A model generated the notes under the pieces. The model did not search any database and was not told the origin of the DNA. It was given only the letters and a program-made list of their open reading frames with translations. Made by a program: the position numbers and the translations under genes. DNA of 15,392 bases, from assembly GCA_024278035.1 (NCBI GenBank), contig JAJRUA010000410.1, forward strand, positions 1 through 15,392. The letters are read 5' to 3'. The first letter of the stretch is position 1, and every line of letters starts with the position of its first letter. Source of the stretch: Planctomycetota bacterium (GTDB taxonomy: Bacteria; Planctomycetota; Planctomycetia; Pirellulales; Lacipirellulaceae). This document shows positions 258 to 12,825 of this stretch, in pieces.

Positions 258-2381
258 TCAGTACTTCCAGGTCATCATTCCGTAAAACTCTCGCTCGACT
301 TCGGTACGCTGAAGGCCAACGGTAGTGGCCTCGTACTCAGGCTGGCTTCTATCGAGAAGATTCCGGCCAACGAGAGATATCTCGAAATTTTGGGACGGAT
401 TCCAAGCAAGTCGAAGATCAATCGTGTTGTAGGAAGGGGCCGCGTTGGCACCAATCGAATCGGCATAGCGCCAGATCATGTCAAATTGCCAATCACGGGC
501 GATGTCCCATGAGGACTGTAGATAGATAAGGTTGGCAGGGACCAAACCGGCACCCGGAAAATCGCTGTTATAGTTCGTTTCTATGGCAGAGTAGGTGCCA
601 TAGAGGTGCCAATTGGAGTTCAAGTCAAGGTTGGCTGCCAATTCAACTCCGTACGTATCTCCTTTCGCAGAATTAGATATCCCGAAGGGAAGGATAACCC
701 TTGGAGGTGGCCCCGGATCAACGAAGGGGGCACCCGTCACGTTCATCTGAGCTAGATTGTCATAGCGATTGTAGAAAGCGGCGACATCCCAGGAGAACCA
801 ATCGACAGGCTGCGAGCGCATCCCGATTTCATAGGCCAAGAGATCCTCTGATTCAAACGCATTGTTTCCCGCCACGGCAGGAAACACGCCTGGCAGAGCG
901 GGCGGAGGGGGAAGGTAGAACGTGAGGTCATTGTTGGCGCGAGAGGGGGTGCGGACAGCGCGCGAAACCGAACCCCAAATCGACCGCCTTTCGTCCGGCG
1001 TCCAAAGCATCCGAACCGTCGGCTGCATCTCAAACTGTGTGTAGCTATTATGACTAAACTTCGATCCAATCGTAAAGTAAAGTTCGTCTTCGAGCAACGT
1101 AATCTCGTCCTGAACAAAATAGCTGAAATTATCAACCGAACGTCTTGGTTGAGAGAACTCATAGAGAAAAGGAGCATCGGTTAGGCGATCGGTGATATTT
1201 CGATAGCCGACCCCAACAATGACATTGTGCCGATCTCCCAGGGCAAACCGATATGAGGTGTCGAGATCGATGGTTTCGATATTGAAGTCGAGCCCTGTCT
1301 CACTGAATCGGCGAGCCGTTCGATCGTAGTAGAACTGTACGGACCAACTAGAATCCTCATCGATGGTATGGGTCCATCTACCAAGGAGGTTGCTTCCCAC
1401 ATTTTTCTGTGAATCAGAAACCGAGGCGACAAAGGGAGCTGCCGGGGTGGGGTTCAGTGTGCGAATCCCCGACTCTCCTTCGTAGTAGTCGCCTTGTAAG
1501 GTAAGGTGATCCTTTTCAGTTGGTTTCCAATCAATCCGCATACCACCTTGTCCAAGATGCCAGGCATCATTGTCGAGCCCCGCGGCATCGAAGCCCGTAT
1601 CCCGATCGAACCCCTGTCCGTAGATTCGGTAAGTGACATCCTGGCTCCACTGCCCACCAACACGTGCGTTGGCAAAGCCTCTCTCTTCGGTTCCGGCCCC
1701 ACCTTGCAAAAGAACACCCTGGGTATCGCCAGCTTGTTTGGTGATGACATTGATGATGCCGTTCACTGCATTGGCGCCCCAGATGGTTGCCCCCGGTCCC
1801 CGAATGACTTCGATCCGTTCGACATCCTCTAAGATGACGTTTTGGATATCCCAAAGCGTACCGGCAAAAAGAGGCGTGTAGACGGTTCTACCATCGATTT
1901 GGACCAATAATTTGTCGGAAAAACGCCCGCTAAATCCGCGAATAGAAACCGACCAAGTATTAGCGTTAAGCCGAGCGACATGGACCCCGGGAACCATACG
2001 CAGCACATCCGGAACGTTGCGGGCACCACTGCGGCGAATCATTTCGTTCGTCACAACAAAGATCGCCGCTGCCGATCGCCCTACCGTGCTCACCTGACGG
2101 CTGACACTCGTGACCTCCGTCTGAAGTGCGGGAGCCATGACATTGACCTTGGCCAATTGGCTGACATCTTTGTCGGCCATGTCAAGAAGGGCATCAAGTT
2201 CGTCAACGCCTTCATCAGCCGTAGCTTCGGCAGGTGGCGATTCGTTTAGCGATTCTTCTTCTAAACCCGCGTATTGCATCGGCGTAGCGTACGGATCGGC
2301 TGCCCCTGCGGGGGTAGCCATGGCTATGATAGCAATCGCTAGCAAGGCACATTTTGATACAAATAAACGGTCCTCCAGCAT
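258..2381 (-). CDS. TonB-dependent outer membrane receptor
   Basis: This 707-residue protein is an outer membrane active transporter that would use TonB-ExbB-ExbD energy to import a scarce ligand. Residues 1-27 form a signal peptide (hydrophobic core 11-22, cleavage near AGA|AD). An acidic stretch (about 38-75) follows. The plug domain spans about 86-216, with VSIRGF (145-150), LVQIDGRTVYTPLF (159-172), ERIEVIRGPG (188-197) and WGANAVNGIINVITK (201-215). The remainder is the 22-strand barrel, ending in the aromatic Y707 expected of a porin-type C terminus. The start ATG has a GGAGG ribosome site five bases upstream. The plug resembles BtuB-like receptors (COG4206 type), and the leader resembles a cobalamin riboswitch, so a corrinoid is a possible ligand. 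The barrel sequence alone does not prove this; iron chelates remain possible. Confidence 0.93.
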   Translation of the reverse strand: MLEDRLFVSKCALLAIAIIAMATPAGAADPYATPMQYAGLEEESLNESPPAEATADEGVDELDALLDMADKDVSQLAKVNVMAPALQTEVTSVSRQVSTVGRSAAAIFVVTNEMIRRSGARNVPDVLRMVPGVHVARLNANTWSVSIRGFSGRFSDKLLVQIDGRTVYTPLFAGTLWDIQNVILEDVERIEVIRGPGATIWGANAVNGIINVITKQAGDTQGVLLQGGAGTEERGFANARVGGQWSQDVTYRIYGQGFDRDTGFDAAGLDNDAWHLGQGGMRIDWKPTEKDHLTLQGDYYEGESGIRTLNPTPAAPFVASVSDSQKNVGSNLLGRWTHTIDEDSSWSVQFYYDRTARRFSETGLDFNIETIDLDTSYRFALGDRHNVIVGVGYRNITDRLTDAPFLYEFSQPRRSVDNFSYFVQDEITLLEDELYFTIGSKFSHNSYTQFEMQPTVRMLWTPDERRSIWGSVSRAVRTPSRANNDLTFYLPPPPALPGVFPAVAGNNAFESEDLLAYEIGMRSQPVDWFSWDVAAFYNRYDNLAQMNVTGAPFVDPGPPPRVILPFGISNSAKGDTYGVELAANLDLNSNWHLYGTYSAIETNYNSDFPGAGLVPANLIYLQSSWDIARDWQFDMIWRYADSIGANAAPSYNTIDLRLAWNPSQNFEISLVGRNLLDRSQPEYEATTVGLQRTEVEREFYGMMTWKY

Positions 2382-2391
2382 TTCCGCCTCC

Positions 2392-2578
2392 GTGCGGTCT
2401 CTTGCTTCATGTCCAGTGGAGGGTGCCCCCTTTCAATAGGATCGGTGAGACTAGCTGCCGGCTACAGCGAGTTAAGCCAGGCAGCGAGGATGTGCGGGAC
2501 AGCGCGTTCCGATTCGATGCCTTGTACCAATCAAGGTTCGGTTTCCCGTCAAGTTCAGGCTACCGAAGGTAGGGGGCA
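2392..2578 (-). promoter_or_regulatory. Candidate cobalamin-type riboswitch / structured leader
   Basis: The leader of the receptor gene, read on the minus strand, shows in order several landmarks of the cobalamin riboswitch. They are CGGTAGCC (2565-2558), GGGAA (2547-2543), an extended hairpin CCGA...TCGG ending in GAATCGG (2515-2509), the B12-box-like GCTGTCCCGC (2503-2494), CCACTGG (2419-2413) and AAGCAAGAGACCGC (2407-2394; consensus AAGCCAGGAGACC). The first CGGT can pair with ACCG in the last motif, as the closing helix does in this family. The 3' end sits two bases from the GGAGG site, which suits translational control. Weak points are the imperfect B12 box after CCCGC, the missing second GGGAAG element and the inserted hairpins. 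Confidence 0.45.
2455..2484 (-). repeat. Strong hairpin inside the receptor leader
   Basis: On the minus strand CTGCC-T-GGCT (2484-2475) pairs with AGCCGGCAG (2463-2455): nine base pairs with one bulged T around an 11-base loop. It lies inside the candidate riboswitch, between the B12-box-like motif and CCACTGG, where peripheral arms of that RNA vary in length. Confidence 0.55.
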
Positions 2579-2593
2579 TTCTGGTCATGCCGA

Positions 2594-5146
2594 TTAGACG
2601 CCGCTTGTGATTGCTCTAGCAGGAATATCGATCCGTGCCGCAATCCTTTGGATTGTTCCAAGAACTTCAACGGCTTCAGCGTATCGGCACTCGCTGGCAA
2701 GCGTTTCTAGTTCTTTTGCTGGTTGGGTGAAGTCACCGAAACCTGCTCCCCCTGCGGTGCCAAGAAGATTGTGGGCAAGGCTTTTTAATTGTTCGGCTTG
2801 CTCGTTCCCGGCAGCTTCCTGCATTCTCGGTAAACTCTCTTCTAGAAAGTCGCCAAAGTCTTGAACAATTTCTAAGAAAACCGGGTTTCCAACCGGAAGC
2901 GTTGAGCCAATCTTCTTGTCAGCCCCGGTTAAAGAAACGACTTTGCTGGCCTCTTCTTGAGAAGCCGAAGCAGGGAGCCAACTGGCGATTTTTCTTATCA
3001 GGTTTTCTGCAACGATCGGTTTGGAGAGATAATCATTGCAGCCAGCGTCGATACATTTTTCTTTGTCCCCTTTCATGGCATGGGCTGTCAAAGCAAGGAT
3101 CGGTGTCGGGTTGCCCCGCTCTCGAAGTGTGGCGGCTGCGGTGTAGCCATCCATGACCGGCATTTGCATGTCAAGCAAGATGAGGTCGTAGTCACGCTCC
3201 GTTGCTTTACAAACACCGATCTCGCCATTCTCGGCAATATCAATCGTTGTAACGCCTGCTTGAGTCAACAAAGCGACAATCAATTTTTGGTTGATTTCGC
3301 CATCTTCGACAAGAAGAATGCGAGCGCCGTTCAGTTTTTGACTCGCCGCTCCACTCGATTGGTCCGGTGTGCCCACGCCGTCTCCGGGAGGCGAGCTAAG
3401 CATCTCCGTTTTTTGAAGAGACCCCGCATCAACCGTGACCGAAAAAGTGCTACCAAAGCCAACACAGCTTTCCATGGTTAGGTCCCCGCCAAGGGCTTGG
3501 GCCAATTGTCGGCTGATGGTTAGTCCGAGCCCTGTTCCACCGAATTTTCGGGTCACGGAACTATCTGCCTGGGAGAAGGGCGCAAAAACTAGGTCTTGCT
3601 TATCTTGAGGAATACCCATACCACTGTCGATCACATCAACACACAATTGGTTCGTGCCATCTTCCTGTTGCTCAATGCTGGCGACCAAGCGGACGCCCCC
3701 TTCTTGGGTGAACTTGATTGCGTTGCCAACAAGATTGACCAGCACCTGGCGGAGTCGTGTCGGATCGGTGTGGATGGCTGCCGGCAGAGGGCCCTTCCAT
3801 TGACTATCAAGGGTCAGGCCTTTTTCCTTCGCACGGACACGCATGAGGCTCGTGACTTCTGCCAACAAGGCGTGGGGCGAGTAGTCGAGTTTCTCAAGCT
3901 CCACTTTGTCCGACTCGATTTTCGACAAGTCCAGAATGTCATTGATGAGCGTCAGCAGATGTTGGCCGCTTGTCTGGATATGGGAGAGGTACTCGGCCTG
4001 TTCTTCTTGGCTAAGCGATTCACCATGTTGCGCTAACACATCGGCAAATCCAAGAATGCCATTGAGCGGCGTACGAATCTCATGGCTCATGTTGGCAAGG
4101 AACTGGCTTTTTGCCCGGTTGCTTGATTCGGCTCGTTTTTTCTCTTTTTCGAGCTTCTGGTTGAGTCGGTCGTTGGCGATGGCTACGCCCATCAGCTCAC
4201 CGATCGACTGCAATTGCTGTAGGCGTGTTCCGTCCCGTACGGGGTAGGGGTCGGTATACAAAAACATAATGCCGACCGGCACATTTTCATGCATGAGTGG
4301 CACGATATAATGCCCGTGGGCCTTCATCCCTTCAAAGGTTTGCTCATGGCGAGGGTCGCAGAAACAATCGTCCGAAACGATCATCTCACCTGATACCGCA
4401 GCCCGCCCACATAGGCAAAAGCCTTTGGGGATCGTTTTTTCCTTTGCGAAAAACTCTTCCGAGAATTTTCCGTTCGTCACGAAAAGATCAAGATGATCTT
4501 GTTCTTCAGAAGTGAGAAAGACGCCTCCTTTGTTTTGTATCTCAAGTCCTTCAAGACCCATAAGCAAAGTTAAGGAATTTTTGATTCGGTCTTTCAGCGG
4601 ATGTTGTTCCTGCAGAACGACTGCGATGGCGGCGCGTGCGGTGGCATCGTCTCTTTCGCGTTTTCGTTGGTTCTCTTGAGTGACCGTGTAAGAAATGTCT
4701 CGGTGTGTTGAGATATAGGCGATGTTCTCACCTTGGGCATCCAACATCGGTGAAATGGACATATGGGCCCAATAGAAATCATCCTCTCTCGGCTTAGGGT
4801 TTTGGCCCATTATGGGAAGCTCAGCAGTGGGCCTCGATTTGCGTTTGTTGATGAGCCGCCCTCTCCAAGTTTCGCCACGGTGGAGAGTCGCCCACATCTC
4901 TTGAAAGACACTTTCGGGGGTCTTGCCGCTCTTGAGTATCTGTGGAGTCTTCCCGATCGCTTCTTCCGTGCTCCAGCCCGTCACGTTGGTGAAAGCGGGG
5001 TTCGCATACTGGATAACGCCATACGGATCCGTGATGATGATCGCGTCGGCGCTCGATTCCGTGGCGTTCTTGAAATAAGACTCGGTTAGCATCGCACGGC
5101 ACTCGCTGTGTACTTGGTTGCACCCGTTTTTCAGTAAGGAAATCAT
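2594..5146 (-). CDS. Hybrid sensor histidine kinase (PAS-GAF-HisKA-HATPase-REC-Hpt)
   Basis: This is a cytoplasmic phosphorelay kinase of about 850 residues with no clear membrane span. Numbering is from the ATG at 5146; an in-frame TTG two codons upstream is an alternative start, and neither has a good ribosome site. A PAS domain (about 22-155, with NPAFTNVTGW) comes first. A GAF-type domain (about 170-325) carries a Cys/His-rich signature: C244-x-C246, C261-x-C263, H267, H277, H279. The HisKA box NMSHEIRTPLNG gives phospho-acceptor H355. The ATPase has N475, DSGMGI (507-512) and GTGLGL (537-542). The receiver domain (607-722) has E614/D615, D659, T687 and K709. The C-terminal Hpt domain has H792 in LAHNLLG. 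All relay residues are present (His-Asp-His), so an output regulator elsewhere is expected. The gene lies 212 bases upstream of the receptor on the same strand. Confidence 0.94.
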   Translation of the reverse strand: MISLLKNGCNQVHSECRAMLTESYFKNATESSADAIIITDPYGVIQYANPAFTNVTGWSTEEAIGKTPQILKSGKTPESVFQEMWATLHRGETWRGRLINKRKSRPTAELPIMGQNPKPREDDFYWAHMSISPMLDAQGENIAYISTHRDISYTVTQENQRKRERDDATARAAIAVVLQEQHPLKDRIKNSLTLLMGLEGLEIQNKGGVFLTSEEQDHLDLFVTNGKFSEEFFAKEKTIPKGFCLCGRAAVSGEMIVSDDCFCDPRHEQTFEGMKAHGHYIVPLMHENVPVGIMFLYTDPYPVRDGTRLQQLQSIGELMGVAIANDRLNQKLEKEKKRAESSNRAKSQFLANMSHEIRTPLNGILGFADVLAQHGESLSQEEQAEYLSHIQTSGQHLLTLINDILDLSKIESDKVELEKLDYSPHALLAEVTSLMRVRAKEKGLTLDSQWKGPLPAAIHTDPTRLRQVLVNLVGNAIKFTQEGGVRLVASIEQQEDGTNQLCVDVIDSGMGIPQDKQDLVFAPFSQADSSVTRKFGGTGLGLTISRQLAQALGGDLTMESCVGFGSTFSVTVDAGSLQKTEMLSSPPGDGVGTPDQSSGAASQKLNGARILLVEDGEINQKLIVALLTQAGVTTIDIAENGEIGVCKATERDYDLILLDMQMPVMDGYTAAATLRERGNPTPILALTAHAMKGDKEKCIDAGCNDYLSKPIVAENLIRKIASWLPASASQEEASKVVSLTGADKKIGSTLPVGNPVFLEIVQDFGDFLEESLPRMQEAAGNEQAEQLKSLAHNLLGTAGGAGFGDFTQPAKELETLASECRYAEAVEVLGTIQRIAARIDIPARAITSGV

Positions 5147-5392
5147 GCGCAAAGGTTGTGCGCAGTCTTTCTCGCCTCAAAGAGTAGCTCCTCCGCATGA
5201 AGAAGCCGATTCAGCAGCGGAAAACCGCAAGAAAGCCGTGAGTCGGTCGGTGCAATAGTGACGAAAAAAACGATGCTACGGGTGAGGGCGATCTTCTCGG
5301 CCCGCGAAGCAGTGGGGCCCTTCCCTGCCTCGCGGGGGCTGAGGAAATCATTGGCTTGCCGTAGAATTGCGTCAAAGGGACTAGCGAGATTC
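5147..5392. other. Spacer between threonine synthase and hybrid kinase
   Basis: This 246-base spacer must hold the kinase promoter (minus strand) unless the kinase is transcribed through from threonine synthase. I could not pick out a convincing -35/-10 pair. A small hairpin GCGG-AAAA-CCGC sits at 5217-5228. The larger inverted repeat at 5301-5336 is listed separately. Confidence 0.5.
5301..5336 (-). terminator. Possible transcription stop after threonine synthase
   Basis: CCCGCGA (5301-5307) pairs with TCGCGGG (5330-5336); after a 2x2 mismatch CAG/CTG continues the stem. On the minus strand it begins 57 bases downstream of the threonine synthase stop. A run of seven T occurs (complement of 5264-5270), but 30 bases beyond the stem, so this is not a textbook intrinsic terminator. 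Confidence 0.3.
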
Positions 5393-7654: not shown

Positions 7655-8248
7655 ATGGACAATTCGACTTCTACCGCTTCTGATTCTACGCTGCCAGATC
7701 GCGTTCCTGCGAACCGCTACGCGGTGTTTGCCGTGATGTCGATGGGAGGCTTGGCAGCGGATTTGGCGACCAAGGCGTGGGTCTTCGCTTGGCCGGGCAA
7801 ACTCACGGGCCATGTCGATTGGCTTGTGAAAGATTATGTCGGCATCCAAACGAGCCTCAACGAAGGGGCCCTTTTCGGCATGGGCCAGGGGATGGTCTTT
7901 TGGTTTGCTGCGGTGAGCTTGTTTGCCGCGATGGCGATTCCCGCATGGCTTTTCGTTTGGCAAGCGGCCCATGACTGGTGGCTCACGGTGGCGCTCGGAG
8001 GCATCTTTGGCGGCGTGCTGGGGAACCTCTACGATCGCCTCGGCCTGCATGGCGAGATTCGGCCCGCATATCATCCACAAGCGGGAGAAACGATCTACGC
8101 TGTCCGCGACTGGATTTTATTCCAAGCCAACGACCAATGGCGCTGGCCCAATTTCAATATCGCCGACTCGCTACTGGTAGTCGGTGCAGCCGTCCTCTTC
8201 TGGCGGGCTATGAAAGAACCAAAAAATAAGGCTGAGCGCAGCGAGTAA
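7655..8248 (+). CDS. lspA: Lipoprotein signal peptidase (signal peptidase II)
   Basis: This inner membrane aspartic protease of 197 residues cleaves signal peptides of diacylated prolipoproteins. Visible landmarks are LAADLATKAW (34-43), TSLNEGALFG (66-75), GGVLGNLYDR (119-128) with catalytic D127, and FNIADSLLVVGA (167-178) with catalytic D171. Four hydrophobic segments lie near 21-45, 79-102, 109-126 and 168-184. The two catalytic aspartates are 44 residues apart, against about 19 in E. coli or Pseudomonas LspA, so a loop of some 25 residues is inserted (about 130-165). I chose the ATG at 7655 with a weak AAGG nine bases upstream. A TTG at 7616 would add 13 residues. Confidence 0.93.
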   Translation: MDNSTSTASDSTLPDRVPANRYAVFAVMSMGGLAADLATKAWVFAWPGKLTGHVDWLVKDYVGIQTSLNEGALFGMGQGMVFWFAAVSLFAAMAIPAWLFVWQAAHDWWLTVALGGIFGGVLGNLYDRLGLHGEIRPAYHPQAGETIYAVRDWILFQANDQWRWPNFNIADSLLVVGAAVLFWRAMKEPKNKAERSE

Positions 8249-8307
8249 GAGGTAGATAGTCGCTTGCGCAAACTGTCCGCTATCGCCGTCCGGTAGTAAC
8301 CAACTTC
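8249..8307. other. Convergent spacer between lspA and the motor operon
   Basis: The two operons end head-on here, separated by 59 bases. GATAG (8255-8259) can pair with CTATC (8280-8284), and the stem can be lengthened by two pairs with a bulged T. It lacks a T-run on either strand, so termination in this gap is plausible but not shown. Confidence 0.4.
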
Positions 8308-9345
8308 TCATTGCAACACCGTCGTCTTACCACCAGGGCTAAAGGCGATTGGCTTACCGGATCGCTGGAGTGACTTAGCGACCCGATAGCCACGCTCTCG
8401 GAGATTTTTTTCTAACTGAGGCAGCACATCAAAACTGTCGGGGTAGGTAATCAAGGTGATAACGGTCTTCTTCGGATCGACCGTACGGAGTCGATTAAGA
8501 AGACGGCTATTGGCTTGCATCGCTTCGTTCAGGCTTTCGGTCGGTGGTCCTGTTCCGTAGAGCCCCGCTTGTGGTTCTAGGCGTGCGACTTTTAGGCCAC
8601 CCACGACCATCGTCCCTTCAGCCGTCTGCACAAGCCGCCGAGAAAAAAGGCACCGTAGAGCAAATCCATCGATGGGCCCCACGAGTCGTTCAAAACTCGC
8701 CTCTTCTCCCGACATGGAAGAAAACGAATTGCGGATGCTTGCCATACTGTACTCTAGCTCTTGCTTCAATTCGTTGACCGGTAAATAAACGACACGATCC
8801 GCTTCGAGTCGCAGGAGCACTTCGTCGGTTACCCGTCCGCGGACGATGGGCGTTGGCTCAAAATCGATTTGTTCAATTTCGGGTCCTGTATCCGCAGCGA
8901 TGAGACCAATTTGTTTGCGGGTTAATTTCTCCAGCTCAAGCTGAGCTTGAGCCAGTTGATTGTGTGTATCAAAAGTTCGGCGATCACTTGCGGAGAGGTT
9001 TTTTCGTTCTTCGTCCAATTCCGCGCGGAGCGTGGCGATGTACGTTGCCAACTCCTCACGCACTTGATTGCGAAGCTGCGATTCTCCCAGGGAGATGGCG
9101 GCTTGCTCGACCAATCGAGCAACCTCCTTCCGATTGAGCAACGCTTCACGAATCGCCCCCTTGGCTTCTTCGATGACTTGCTCGTGATCGACCGTTTGCA
9201 CCTGAGCGACGACCGCCACTTGGCGTCCGGCCCGAACGCCAACGACCACCACCAAGAGCACAAGGATGCCGACAATGTTGGCAACAATGTCGAGAAACGA
9301 ATCACCGCCGGGCATCTCTTCTTGTTCATCGGCGTTGCGACGCAT
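8308..9345 (-). CDS. ExbD/TolR-like single-span motor subunit (Asp-containing)
   Basis: This 345-residue membrane protein is the third gene of the motor operon. A short cytoplasmic N terminus leads into one transmembrane helix (about 17-39), GGDSFLDIVANIVGILVLLV. D19 sits in the FLD motif, where ExbD/TolR/MotB/ZorB-type subunits keep their ion-carrying aspartate (FID in ExbD). A coiled coil (about 50-145) follows in the periplasm. A C-terminal alpha/beta domain (about 178-345) contains EADRVVYLPVN (181-191) and VITLITYPDS...ERGYRVAKS (295-325). I see no OmpA/MotB peptidoglycan-binding signature. The ATG overlaps the end of the preceding gene by 20 bases and has a strong AAGGAGGG ribosome site, so the two are co-transcribed. 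Specific function is unknown; energy-coupling in the envelope is inferred. Confidence 0.8.
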   Translation of the reverse strand: MRRNADEQEEMPGGDSFLDIVANIVGILVLLVVVVGVRAGRQVAVVAQVQTVDHEQVIEEAKGAIREALLNRKEVARLVEQAAISLGESQLRNQVREELATYIATLRAELDEERKNLSASDRRTFDTHNQLAQAQLELEKLTRKQIGLIAADTGPEIEQIDFEPTPIVRGRVTDEVLLRLEADRVVYLPVNELKQELEYSMASIRNSFSSMSGEEASFERLVGPIDGFALRCLFSRRLVQTAEGTMVVGGLKVARLEPQAGLYGTGPPTESLNEAMQANSRLLNRLRTVDPKKTVITLITYPDSFDVLPQLEKNLRERGYRVAKSLQRSGKPIAFSPGGKTTVLQ

Positions 9346-11218
9346 CTTGCCCTCCTTGCCCGAGGGCCGTGTTGGCAGCGGGCTGTTTCGAGACTTTGAT
9401 ACCAGCGCCGCGCAGCAGTTGGGCTAACTCGTTGGCGCGGGCCTGTCCGTTGGCGGCCGTGTTGAGAATCAGCGACGGCTTCCAGTAAAAACCTTGTCCT
9501 GCGATGCCCCAAGAACCGGCATGTCTCTTGAGGGCCGCTGCGACTTGCGGGGCGTGGGTTCGCGTAGGGCCAACGAACTCGATCGTTTCTCCCGAGGGGA
9601 AAACAATTTGGTCGGCATCAACGGCTAGCTCAATCGTACGACGAATGGGGATGCCCGATCGCCCGTCTTCTTCCGCCTCGCCGTCGCCCTCTTCAGACGA
9701 ATTGCCTGCGGTGGCCGAGGGCGTCGCTTGCGAAGAGGCCGCTTGTGCTTGTGCGTCTGCCTGTGCGGAGGCGGAGGCTGTCGCCCCCGCTTCACGGCTG
9801 CTCCCCCCCCCCTGCCCCGCCGGTCCTTCTGCCGGTCCCTCTTCTGGAGAGGCCGCCACGGTGTCGGACGACGCCACTTGTTCGGCGCCCAGGCTCCCCT
9901 CGCCTGAAGCGTCACCAGAAGGGGATTCTCCTAAGGCATAAGCCGTGGATTGGCTGCTGGAATTTTCACGGTATTGGCCCGCAGTTTGCTCTGTTTGCTC
10001 TTCAGCAGAACCTAACGCGGGGGCCTCGCCCGTTGCAACAGCCTCGTTGCCTTCGGCGTATCCGCTAGCCCCCCCCTGCTCTTCCATCCCAGGTGCTCCG
10101 GCGCTACCAAAATTGACATTCGCGAACGGGTTGTCCGATCCACCGTCACCGCCACCGTCACCTTGCGACGAGCCTAGCAGCGAACCATGGCTGGACCCTC
10201 CCCCGCCACGTCGGCCATGACTCCATGCCCAACCGGCGTTTCCTCTTCGGAAAAGTTGCGGAGCCGCTTCGGCAAGCTGTTCGCGCTCCGCTCGAGCCAA
10301 TTCAATTGCAGCAGCGACCTGTTCGGCCAACATCGGGTTGGGCGCTTCGTACTCAAGCGGCCACTCTTCGGCCACGGGTTGGTAGCCGTACTCATCGTTG
10401 ATCGATTCAAGCACTGCCCGTGCCGCATGGTAGGCTGAGATGCCATCGGGCCGAACAACGAGGAGAGGGTAAGGCAACCCGGCTTCGCCAACGCCCCTCG
10501 CTTCGGGGTGATCGGCGTAGTATTGCTTGATCGTCCGAACAGCCGCCGCTAGGGGACTGCTTACGTGGACCGGAGGCAAGAAATCTTCGCGTGTCAGCTT
10601 GATCCCCTCCGGCTGAAGTAGCACTCCGTCTGCACGGCACTCAAAGTAAACAGCAGGCCGGTGGGTGCCGGTCGCTTCGTCACGCATGGGCACGATAGCG
10701 TAGCGTCGCTGCCGGCCAGCGGCTTGCTCTTCAAGCTCTACGATTTCATCGGTAAGCATTTTCGTTAGTTCTTGAAGACGCTCAAGCTCTTGCTCCGCCA
10801 TCGCTTGGTCATCGTAATGCTCTTCTTCCAGGGCGATTAGCTCCATCGCTTCGGTACGGAGAGTCTCCACTTCGTCTTGCAACCGGCGAATATGATCTTC
10901 GATACCCGTGAGCTTGGTTTGCTCTTCTTCGAGCTGCGCAGCGGCTTGGCTACGCACTTTGCCTAAGCGGTCACGGTAGGTTTGTGCTTCGGCCAGTCGC
11001 TGGCGTGCCAGTTGTTGCTCCGGTGTGTCAGCGGCCTGGGCAAGGGCCGCTTGTGCCTCGGCTTGTTGCTCCGCCTTGTCGCGAGCAACGTGGGCCATAG
11101 CAACGAGCAGCACCACCATCGCCCCCATCGTGCAAAGTAGCACAGCGAGGAACGGGAAGAGCGAAGCCGCATTTTCTGAGCGACCTCGGCCGTGGTTACC
11201 TCGTTGGGTACAGCTCAT
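9326..11218 (-). CDS. ExbD-like motor subunit with coiled coil, linker and two periplasmic domains (Asp-less)
   Basis: This 630-residue membrane protein is the middle gene of the operon. Order: short basic cytoplasmic end; transmembrane helix 19-42 (SLFPFLAVLLCTMGAMVVLL); coiled coil 45-168, rich in Glu, Gln and Ala; first alpha/beta domain about 172-290, with ECRADGVLL (193-201) and VVRPDGISAYHAARAVL (254-270); low-complexity linker about 325-520, dominated by Gly, Ser, Ala and Glu; second alpha/beta domain about 523-612, with VDADQIVFPSG (533-543) and SLILNTAANGQARANELAQ (582-600). The helix aligns without gaps to that of the 345-residue partner, but alanine (A25) replaces its aspartate (D19). 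The start codon overlaps the stop of the channel gene (ATGA). The linker DNA has a G10 and a G8 run. A precise function is not recognisable. Confidence 0.78.
   Translation of the reverse strand: MSCTQRGNHGRGRSENAASLFPFLAVLLCTMGAMVVLLVAMAHVARDKAEQQAEAQAALAQAADTPEQQLARQRLAEAQTYRDRLGKVRSQAAAQLEEEQTKLTGIEDHIRRLQDEVETLRTEAMELIALEEEHYDDQAMAEQELERLQELTKMLTDEIVELEEQAAGRQRRYAIVPMRDEATGTHRPAVYFECRADGVLLQPEGIKLTREDFLPPVHVSSPLAAAVRTIKQYYADHPEARGVGEAGLPYPLLVVRPDGISAYHAARAVLESINDEYGYQPVAEEWPLEYEAPNPMLAEQVAAAIELARAEREQLAEAAPQLFRRGNAGWAWSHGRRGGGGSSHGSLLGSSQGDGGGDGGSDNPFANVNFGSAGAPGMEEQGGASGYAEGNEAVATGEAPALGSAEEQTEQTAGQYRENSSSQSTAYALGESPSGDASGEGSLGAEQVASSDTVAASPEEGPAEGPAGQGGGSSREAGATASASAQADAQAQAASSQATPSATAGNSSEEGDGEAEEDGRSGIPIRRTIELAVDADQIVFPSGETIEFVGPTRTHAPQVAAALKRHAGSWGIAGQGFYWKPSLILNTAANGQARANELAQLLRGAGIKVSKQPAANTALGQGGQDASQRR
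9803..9812 (-). repeat. G10 homopolymer tract in coding sequence
   Basis: Ten consecutive C on the plus strand (G10 in the coding strand) encode part of GQGGGSS, near residues 468-474 of the Asp-less motor subunit. Gain or loss of one base would shift the frame inside the linker and remove the last periplasmic domain. It could mark phase variation, or simply GC-rich low-complexity coding. Confidence 0.7.
10069..10076 (-). repeat. G8 homopolymer tract in coding sequence
   Basis: Eight consecutive C on the plus strand (G8 in the coding strand) lie in the same linker of the Asp-less subunit, at EQGGAS near residues 380-385. It is shorter than the G10 tract and less likely to slip. Confidence 0.65.
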
Positions 11219-12825
11219 GCGGCCTTACTCGAAGAGGTGGTGGCCACCACTGCTTGCTCACGTCCGGCACGTGCGCTCAGCAATTGGATCGCTGCGGAGA
11301 GACTCTGAAGCGTTTCTTCAAAGTTATGAGCCCTGCCAAGCGATGAGAGATTACGACTCAGCGTCTCCTCAAGCTGTTGCACTTGGCTTGTTGATTCGAC
11401 GACTTGCAGCAGTACTTCGCCCTGTTTGACCAGTTGCTCTTGGTGGCCAACGGTCGCTCCCGCTGCGGAAACGAGAGCCTCTTGCATCTCCTTGAGTAAT
11501 TTTTCGCTTTGCCGGATGAGCTTCTCTTGTCGATCGGCGGCAACGACCATCGACTCGCCAAGAGCCGCCTCAACTTCGCTCAGATGACGACGATTCTCTG
11601 AGGCAAGTCCCTCTTCGGCGGAGGTGAGCGTCTCGCCATGCTTTTGCAGGGCTTCGACCAATAGTTCCGCCATCCGTTCGAGTCCGTTTCCGAGGTTTCC
11701 TATCAGTTGGTCGGCATTGTCCGTAAGCCGTTCGGCGTGGCTCGCTTCAAGGGCGGCCAGTTTTTCCATTTGTTGTTGGATGGCTCCGCTTACCACCGTC
11801 GTTTGTGTCGTCAAATTGGAATTGAGCTGTGCGATCTGGTGTTCGGCCCCTTCGATCAAGCCTTTTGCATGATCTTTGAGGTTTTCCTTGAGAGCCGATT
11901 GGAGTGAACTCGTGAGAGTTTCTCCCGCTGAGCTGGTCGCCTCGGCCCACTGTTGGTGGGTGGCATTGATGGCCGCTTGCCAAGTCTCGGTCTGTTTTTC
12001 CGAGAGTTGTTCGACTGCGGAAATGACTTGTTCGCCCATCCGCCGGATCGATGCGACATTCGGATCCGTCCCGGCACCGTACTGCTGGAATCGCCCGACG
12101 AGCAGTTGGGCTGTTCTTTGGTTGACTCTCTGAAGAAGCCGCTCCTCGACGCGTTCCGCACCGAAGATACCGAACCAAAGCACCAACATGAGCGACATCG
12201 CTTGGGCTGTCGTATCGAAAGCAATAGAAAGAGCGGCCATCACCGAAGTGAGCGATTGCTCAAGCTGATCCGGCGAAAGCTGACCAATGGCGAGCGTGAT
12301 GCCAATCACCGTGCCAAGCATACCGACAATCGGTAAGGTGGCTCGTACAAGGCGTGGCAGCGCGTAGCCTGCCGACATATTTTCAAACTCATTATCTTCC
12401 TGGCGAAGCAGGTGCTCTTCGAGCGTGTCAGCAGAATCGGTATCACAAACGTACTCCAGCCCCTCACGAAGCCGCTCGACAAGTTGCGTTTTACCAAGGA
12501 GTTCAGGAAGGGCATCCAGCCGGCCAAGCAGGAGCGGCGCGTCGGAAGCGGGTTGGCCGCCCGCCGGTGCGGCGTCTAGGAGGTCGAGCTTGAGCACATG
12601 GAACTGTCCGACAAGGCTCAGCAGCCGGAGGCCGAGGGCTGCCATGGCAACAAAGAACAGTAAGGTAGAAGTCCACTCTACCGGGTGAGCCGAAAAATAG
12701 CGGCTCAGCAGTGGCGAGGAGATGGCACCCGTGCTAAGCGAGGCATAAAACGTCAGCGTAGCAAGGCCACCCCAAAGCAAAGGGGAACGAAGAAACCAGT
12801 TTGCCAGTGATGAGACACGCGACAC
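11215..12825 (-). CDS. MotA/TolQ/ExbB-type proton channel protein with long cytoplasmic tail (ZorA-like architecture)
   Basis: This 536-residue inner membrane protein is the first gene of the motor operon. Four hydrophobic helices lie near 15-34, 52-73, 160-182 and 192-222. The last two carry the family core LPIVGMLGTVIGITLAIG (164-181) and SIAFDTTAQAMSLMLVLWF (200-218); T172 and T205/T206 correspond to the pore threonines of ExbB and TolQ. From about 223 to the end runs a polar helical tail of some 310 residues, with repeated Gln/Glu/Leu heptad-like spacing. This is longer than in ExbB or TolQ and recalls ZorA of Zorya systems. The start is GTG, preceded by AAGGGG at suitable spacing; no ATG is better placed. 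The stop overlaps the next start (ATGA), implying translational coupling. It would form the ring around two B-type subunits, by family analogy. Confidence 0.85.
   Translation of the reverse strand: MSRVSSLANWFLRSPLLWGGLATLTFYASLSTGAISSPLLSRYFSAHPVEWTSTLLFFVAMAALGLRLLSLVGQFHVLKLDLLDAAPAGGQPASDAPLLLGRLDALPELLGKTQLVERLREGLEYVCDTDSADTLEEHLLRQEDNEFENMSAGYALPRLVRATLPIVGMLGTVIGITLAIGQLSPDQLEQSLTSVMAALSIAFDTTAQAMSLMLVLWFGIFGAERVEERLLQRVNQRTAQLLVGRFQQYGAGTDPNVASIRRMGEQVISAVEQLSEKQTETWQAAINATHQQWAEATSSAGETLTSSLQSALKENLKDHAKGLIEGAEHQIAQLNSNLTTQTTVVSGAIQQQMEKLAALEASHAERLTDNADQLIGNLGNGLERMAELLVEALQKHGETLTSAEEGLASENRRHLSEVEAALGESMVVAADRQEKLIRQSEKLLKEMQEALVSAAGATVGHQEQLVKQGEVLLQVVESTSQVQQLEETLSRNLSSLGRAHNFEETLQSLSAAIQLLSARAGREQAVVATTSSSKAA

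Follow-up and report, generated by a model that had tools for sequence, protein, structure and literature searches.

The operon described here lies on the minus strand of a 15,392-nucleotide stretch of planctomycete DNA (contig JAJRUA010000410.1 of assembly GCA_024278035.1; hereafter the window). It consists of three overlapping genes, which encode a channel subunit (A) and two unlike single-helix subunits (B' and B). With a probability of roughly 0.6, its products form a single MotA/ExbB-type motor driven by ions, with A subunits arranged as a ring around a heterodimeric B/B' axle and with an inferred stoichiometry of 5:1:1. The observations behind this proposal are the gene order, the residue patterns at the acidic sites, a linked change of channel residue 204 and B' residue 25, and a linked change in the stalk lengths of B' and B. 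An earlier, sequence-only reading had described the three open reading frames (ORFs), their translational coupling and a gapless helix alignment that sets D19 of B opposite A25 of B'; these points were confirmed. The features are as follows (lengths in amino acids, aa; confidence of predicted models as predicted local distance difference test, pLDDT).

11215..12825, minus strand: A, channel subunit of the MotA/TolQ/ExbB type, 536 aa, with a long C-terminal coiled-coil-like tail (PF01618 and ZorA2 models)
12310..12312, minus strand: A T172 of GTVIGI, aligned with T148 of E. coli ExbB (alignment E 1.8e-5)
12208..12216, minus strand: A D204-T205-T206 of the AFDTT motif in the channel helix; T206 falls on ExbB T181 in the same alignment
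9326..11218, minus strand: B', single-helix subunit without the acidic residue, 630 aa (ORF list, homologues)
11144..11146, minus strand: B' A25, at the place of ExbD D25 (homologue counts; weak register)
10718..11023, minus strand: B' predicted helical hairpin stalk, residues 66-167 (blocks of pLDDT 63-88)
10265..10654, minus strand: B' first predicted periplasmic alpha/beta domain, putatively TolR-like, residues 189-318
9677..10222, minus strand: B' low-complexity linker rich in Gly, Ser, Ala and Glu, residues 333-514, predicted to be disordered (pLDDT mostly <50)
9380..9652, minus strand: B' second, C-terminal predicted alpha/beta domain, putatively ExbD-like, residues 523-613
8308..9345, minus strand: B, single-helix subunit with the acidic residue, 345 aa (ORF list, homologues)
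9289..9291, minus strand: B D19, invariant (homologue counts)
8890..9186, minus strand: B predicted helical hairpin stalk, residues 54-152
8341..8826, minus strand: B predicted periplasmic alpha/beta domain with a beta-sheet insert, residues 174-335, without a confident fold match

Gene A starts with GTG, immediately preceded by AAAAGGGG, which resembles a ribosome-binding site. Its stop overlaps the start of B' by 4 nt (ATGA), and B' overlaps B by 20 nt. Over residues 119-212, A matches the Pfam family MotA_ExbB (PF01618; E 3.3e-10, 40.2 bits against a cut-off of 22.9). Neither B nor B' of the window has a Pfam match over the cut-off or an OmpA-like match.

The acidic site in B and B'

The helices of B (residues 17-26, FLDIVANIVG) and B' (residues 23-32, FLAVLLCTMG) place D19 opposite A25 without a gap. 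Among the best 120 of 356 homologues of B, site 19 is Asp in every one, and among the best 120 of 769 homologues of B', site 25 is Ala in 114 and Gly in six; given these counts, the pattern is not due to chance. The wider set comprises 187 distinct B' loci of the family to which the window belongs (type I), taken from the reference scan and further genomes, with copies that share their last 150 residues counted once. As 80 of the regions were taken roughly in score order, the residue counts are not random proportions. Site 25 is Ala in 170, Gly in two, and Ser and Thr in one each; it is Asp in 12 and Glu in one, making 174 non-acidic and 13 acidic B'. Site 19 of B is Asp in all 177 readable sequences of 178. 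The proposal of the sequence-only reading that Asp and Ala are fixed thus holds for B and fails for B', and the homologues of the 630-residue protein with Asp that it had named as evidence against itself do exist. Since the genomes with an acidic B' use a channel lineage lacking Asp204, this exception argues for direct contact between A and B', not against it.

Ordinary ExbD-family proteins served as a control. In six genomes of the same group, all 39 distinct proteins keep the Asp (30 loci are given for 45 matches; 15 tandem pairs are included), and E. coli ExbD and TolR have Asp at the same site. The idea that tandem ExbD genes represent the same phenomenon was rejected because all 39 proteins have Asp. 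Such genes do often stand in tandem pairs (L320, L321, L323-L325, L327, L328, L330-L333, L335-L337, L340), and both members carry Asp in the 15 pairs read.

Decay of B' as an explanation for the missing Asp was also rejected, because its helix is among the most conserved parts of the protein, with F21, P22, F23, L27 and C29 invariant in the top 120 homologues. C29 (window 11132-11134), a cysteine inside the helix, is nearly invariant in the larger set as well (Cys 184, Ser 4 in 188 rows including the reference).

Profile comparison of the B and B' helices recovers the D19/A25 register with a weak score (E 0.0044), and a comparison of B' with ExbD, likewise weak (E 0.08), sets A25 on D25; the weakness of both follows from the shortness of the helices. 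The periplasmic domains score weakly against ExbD, and one strong score proved to be an artefact of a fused gene model (P0202). Fold searches with the predicted models of B and B' gave no match at E <=0.001, and no ExbD or TolR entry stands among the matches listed for B. Going by its predicted model, B' seems to have two ExbD-like domains.

Exchange between channel residue 204 and B' residue 25

The usual A carries the motif AFDTT, with Asp204 two residues before Thr206. In 75 readable homologues of 76 rows, D204 is kept in 74, and T206 and T172 in all 75. In the 13 genomes with an Asp or Glu in B', the working channel has Asn204 instead, and site 198 is Glu in ten, Gln in two and Gly in one. 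This channel, here termed A_N, lies near B' in L037 and L227 and on another contig in the genomes of L044, L058, L287, L289 and L247. The remaining six genomes have it as the tandem partner of an old local channel in which the pore residues T172 and T206 are lost. The arrangement of an intact A_N followed by an old channel without both threonines was seen in L205, L212, L214, L216, L220, L222 and L296-L307, and L376 holds a similar remnant (431-1501, plus strand).

Across 180 B'/A pairs, all 13 acidic B' are combined with Asn204 and none with Asp204, whereas the 167 non-acidic B' are combined with Asp204 in 162 cases, Asn in three and Ala in two. For 12 rows without an intact local channel, the channel found by genome search was used (six in tandem, six on another contig). 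L210, with Ser25 in B' and an A_N in its genome, is one of these 12 rows.

The A_N channels form one clade (14 rows) with a Shimodaira-Hasegawa-like approximate likelihood ratio test support of 100 and their own markers, namely VHFG and mostly Glu198; the decayed channels nest inside the ordinary clade. This tree comprises 75 rows, of which 46 are ordinary channels (sampled), and includes the window twice. Acidic B', by contrast with the single channel clade, occur in five places on the B' tree, which requires five changes, three of them forced by well-supported branches. That tree was built from the residues after the helix, with part of the helix possibly retained in a few rows without a recognised motif. 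Forcing the acidic B' into a single clade costs 198 log-likelihood units and is rejected by the approximately unbiased test (p 6.5e-85; 70 of 181 rows), a test that assumes a group named beforehand, here named by its residue. Their helices also differ (FTFLDVLT, FSFLDGML, FPFLDALI, LPLLDVLL, FPFLEMLL). Because A_N is one clade and acidic B' appear in several places, the channel type seems to have a single origin, with the B' acid arising several times alongside the same partner. On these alignments and trees, the acid would sit either on the channel or on B', and B' would have changed more than once.

The relation was also put to a predictive test. When the order was searched for A_N, 19 of 246 genomes scored 544 bits or more, with the next match at 264; the cut-off was set after this gap had been seen, and 13 of the 19 genomes had already been read. 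For the six unread ones an acidic B' was predicted beforehand, and all six read Asp. This counts as five of five new cases because G335 looks the same as L037, which had been read before. The new genomes are not all independent, given that G320 resembles L287 and L289, and that G319 and G334 resemble L227 and each other. Altogether, B'25 in the 19 genomes is Asp in 17, Glu in one and Ser in one. In a counter-test of 18 further regions, the 17 readable helices had Ala in 16 and Asp in one, that of G360. G533 (L404) holds a usual trio with Ala25 and Asp204 together with an orphan channel with AFNTT, VVHFG and Asn204 that is distant from A_N.

The pattern might reflect nothing but shared ancestry or selective gene transfer, with no direct contact between A and B'. 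A_N, as a single clade with its own markers, implies that A changed only once, and a test on independent pairs falls short of significance, as such an origin would allow. However, the rejection of acidic B' as one clade and their differing helices indicate the same change several times with the same partner, and the prediction held in five of five cases. This explanation is very improbable.

Another arrangement would make A5B2 the motor and B' a force transducer bound to its rim in the manner of TonB or TolA, contacting the outer membrane through its tethered C-terminal domain. The long disordered linker and the second ExbD-like domain of B' fit such a role, and rim-bound von Willebrand factor A (vWA) transducers beside TolQ- and TolR-like genes are described, in the part of the source available, for bacteria of the Planctomycetes-Verrucomicrobia-Chlamydiae (PVC) group (PMC12204202). 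Yet the switching residue of B' lies at the place of ExbD D25, within a PF[LI][A/D]V motif (a weak alignment), and it switches together with an A residue two positions from a pore Thr. A transducer role for B' is unlikely.

Stalk lengths, conservation and the proposed pairing of B with B'

Stalks that lie alongside each other would be expected to vary in length in concert. The length between helix and periplasmic domain could be anchored in 185 of the 187 B' sequences and in 164 of the 178 for B, giving 161 loci with both. The stalk lengths of B' and B correlate across these loci (Spearman 0.66, uncorrected for relatedness). On 77 pairs of loci joined by disjoint branches, they change in the same direction in 27 and in opposite directions in seven (p 0.0008; contrast correlation 0.50), and three control length pairs on the same kind of disjoint pairs gave null results (10:16, 10:8, 7:7). 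An earlier test with motif anchors (105 of 122 parsed loci; 18 versus 3 pairs) is superseded by this one.

These data bear on a view in which two separate motors share one kind of ring, namely A5B2 with two Asp, and A5B'2 with an Asp-less axle driven by ring Asp204, as GldL Glu49 drives GldLM. The usual A does have its own Asp204, and an acid on the ring is known from GldL (PMC8986121, as far as that source was available). In the A_N lineage, which lacks Asp204, B' is acidic (Asp or Glu) in every genome except one, and this would also fit a B'2 axle. Two observations speak against two motors: on disjoint pairs, the stalks of B' and B lengthen or shorten together, unlike the controls, and the two B genes, which overlap, share their operon with just one A. 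The two-motor arrangement is a minority possibility, albeit the most serious of the alternatives. The heterodimer with one active site put forward by the sequence-only reading gains from the stalk lengths, which favour pairing; its "one active site" leaves out the Asp that the ring of the usual channel itself bears beside a conserved Thr.

The trio itself is conserved, as the same reading had expected. The order A-B'-B on one strand occurs in 165 of the 187 type I loci, is partial in 20 and otherwise arranged in two; in six type I loci the local A is decayed. The reference-genome scan found 239 B' relatives, of which 80 loci were kept, with A in 75 and B in 73. Where A is missing, the contig starts at the B' frame (L030, L043, L059), or there is room but no A next to B' and A lies on another contig of the genome (L044, L058). 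Of the seven loci without B, five (L024, L065, L066, L078, L080) break off within B' or shortly behind it, and for L057 and L073 B was located, with its Asp, on another contig of the genome. Nine genomes were searched for an A or B missing next to B': eight have the missing gene elsewhere (A_N in six, an Asp-bearing B in two), and in the ninth, G360, no A was found.

Among 294 genomes drawn from the phylum, strong matches to B' and to B occur in the same 26 genomes (sorted by hand), strong meaning E 1e-28 or better for B' and 1e-40 or better for B; G276, whose complete trio appears in L160, was counted for B' as well. In one order, that of G301, to which the genomes of L001, L002, L005, L015 and L050 also belong, B' is matched at E 1e-5 in 239 of 246 genomes. 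This breadth is the reason why the trio is probably a housekeeping system of a poorly understood cell envelope. Three of the 239 matches are weak (1e-10 to 1e-14; G469, G485, G501) and may be short B' of a second family.

This second family, type II, has a B' of about 270-290 aa with SLFPFLS[VI]L, hence Ser at the site, located after a related A (L141-L151, L106, L108, L109). In many loci the short B' is followed by a B with LDSLLDTM, in which the Asp is kept; the type II B of several genomes (L153-L157) is unlinked, with no A or B' found beside it. Among the best 120 of 505 type II B' matches, all those listed with an organism name are planctomycete or unclassified bacterium. Other distant channel loci, with B-like helices of which ELLLDTMCNAFGGI is an example (L162, 4983-5651, minus strand; L164; L166), may represent more trio families.

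Weight of the evidence and comparison with known motors

Several observations weigh against a single motor with a B/B' axle. Comparison of the B and ExbD profiles aligned only five columns further along and did not recover the Asp register (E 0.13), and the fold matches of B and B' lie below the tool's safe level. For A204 and B'25 alone, the independent-pairs test yielded three pairs (p 0.25), too few to reach 0.05. Five non-acidic B' pair with a channel without Asp204 (Asn in three, one of them A_N; Ala in two), and in L394 a channel with Ala204 accompanies Ala25. G360 has an Asp-bearing B' with no channel in the stretch or in the A_N search (E 1e-40). At the place matching 204, type II channels have Asp in 11 and Asn in four of 15. 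Control lengths, uncorrected for relatedness, also correlate, if more weakly (0.36, 0.15, 0.19, 0.23). Because exactly equal stalk changes are no commoner than chance (3 versus 2.0 expected), and because a shared envelope span could link the lengths as well, the stalk result favours pairing without proving a heterodimer.

With Ala25 not fixed and the ring usually supplying an acid of its own, the asymmetric axle is still the best-supported reading, and one that somewhat exceeds even odds. In such a motor, the ring of A subunits would hold one B and one B'. B would supply the invariant acid Asp19, and B' would be a full axle subunit without an acid. The ring would usually contribute an acid of another kind, Asp204, which precedes the pore residue Thr206 by two positions; in the smaller lineage, A_N would have replaced the channel and the acid would lie at B' site 25. 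Ion flow and rotation would depend on an acid at the A-B' interface, on either side, in addition to that of B, and the exchange between the two sites would put B' in the pore next to A. The paired stalks would end in TolR/ExbD-like domains, and the second domain of B', on its long flexible tether, could reach an outer target in the cell wall or the outer membrane. About evenly balanced is the stronger proposition of an obligately asymmetric 5:1:1 rotary motor, with one helix bearing the classical acid and the second acid at the ring-axle interface as Asp204 or Asp/Glu25, in which replacement by an acid-less ring was repeatedly followed by gain of the axle acid and the old channel, where kept, decayed.

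The trio shares with ExbBD, TolQR and MotAB the MotA_ExbB domain and both pore threonines of A, and a B with one N-terminal Asp helix and a predicted alpha/beta periplasmic domain. The axle-helix Asp typical of the 5:2 superfamily is present in B and absent from B'. It differs in having two unlike B genes per A, one without Asp, in the additional Asp204 of the ring, and in the apparently doubled ExbD-like domain of B'. A resembles ZorA2 models of the Zorya system over the channel and coiled tail (1e-8), but reaches only 29.9 bits against a cut-off of 700 with the curated ZorA model. ZorB, whose Asp (D24/D21) packs against a Ser/Thr ring according to the part of PMC11890865 available, is a single, dimer-forming gene product, unlike the B/B' pair. 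None of the ten window proteins scanned matches the ZorC, ZorD or ZorE models; with the low ZorA score, a Zorya defence system is not supported.

Like the trio, AglRQS of Myxococcus combines one A with two different B genes. A 2022 review (PMC9389320, seen in part) leaves hetero- versus homodimers of AglQ and AglS undecided and predicts both to keep Asp, whereas B' of the window lacks it. For PVC bacteria, the available part of PMC12204202 describes heterologous tolR-like pairs and heterologous vWA pairs whose helices have a conserved Asp. The earlier statement that the two B subunits of known motors are identical was thus too strong. The tolR-like and TPH-vWA pairs resemble the trio in joining a tolQ-like gene to a heterologous B pair; compared by description only, they differ in that section 8 of that source mentions neither an Asp-less member nor a ring exchange. 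GldLM likewise has an acid on the ring subunit, where E49 of GldL is essential (PMC8986121), but has one axle gene, whereas B of the trio keeps the classical Asp and the ring acid stands beside the pore Thr. The word heterodimer does not occur in the available part of PMC12505986. Searches of the open-access literature turned up neither a B subunit of this kind without Asp nor the A204/B'25 exchange.

The genes around the trio were rejected as a clue to function: the neighbour families that recur most often, in up to 26 of 81 loci, look housekeeping-like and show position only. They include, by Pfam matches in the window, lspA, a dksA-like gene and a pyridoxal-phosphate-enzyme/threonine-synthase-like gene, as well as genes that we take to be queC- and queD-like. 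A 46-aa ORF with one hydrophobic stretch (window 8171-8311, minus strand) has its start overlapping the stop codon of B and extends as far as the 3' end of lspA, which it enters. Further away, 258-5152 (minus strand) holds a TonB-dependent receptor (258-2381) and a PAS/GAF hybrid histidine kinase with an Hpt domain (2594-5152).

5:2 motors are mostly modelled with two equal axle helices that alternate in ion binding. If the proposed arrangement is true, a naturally occurring motor in which just one of the two helices bears the acid would put the need for such alternation to the test. The exchange between A204 and B'25 names the residues to test, nature having already run a kind of mutation experiment on them, and the trio would also bear on the question of whether AglQ and AglS form homo- or heterodimers.

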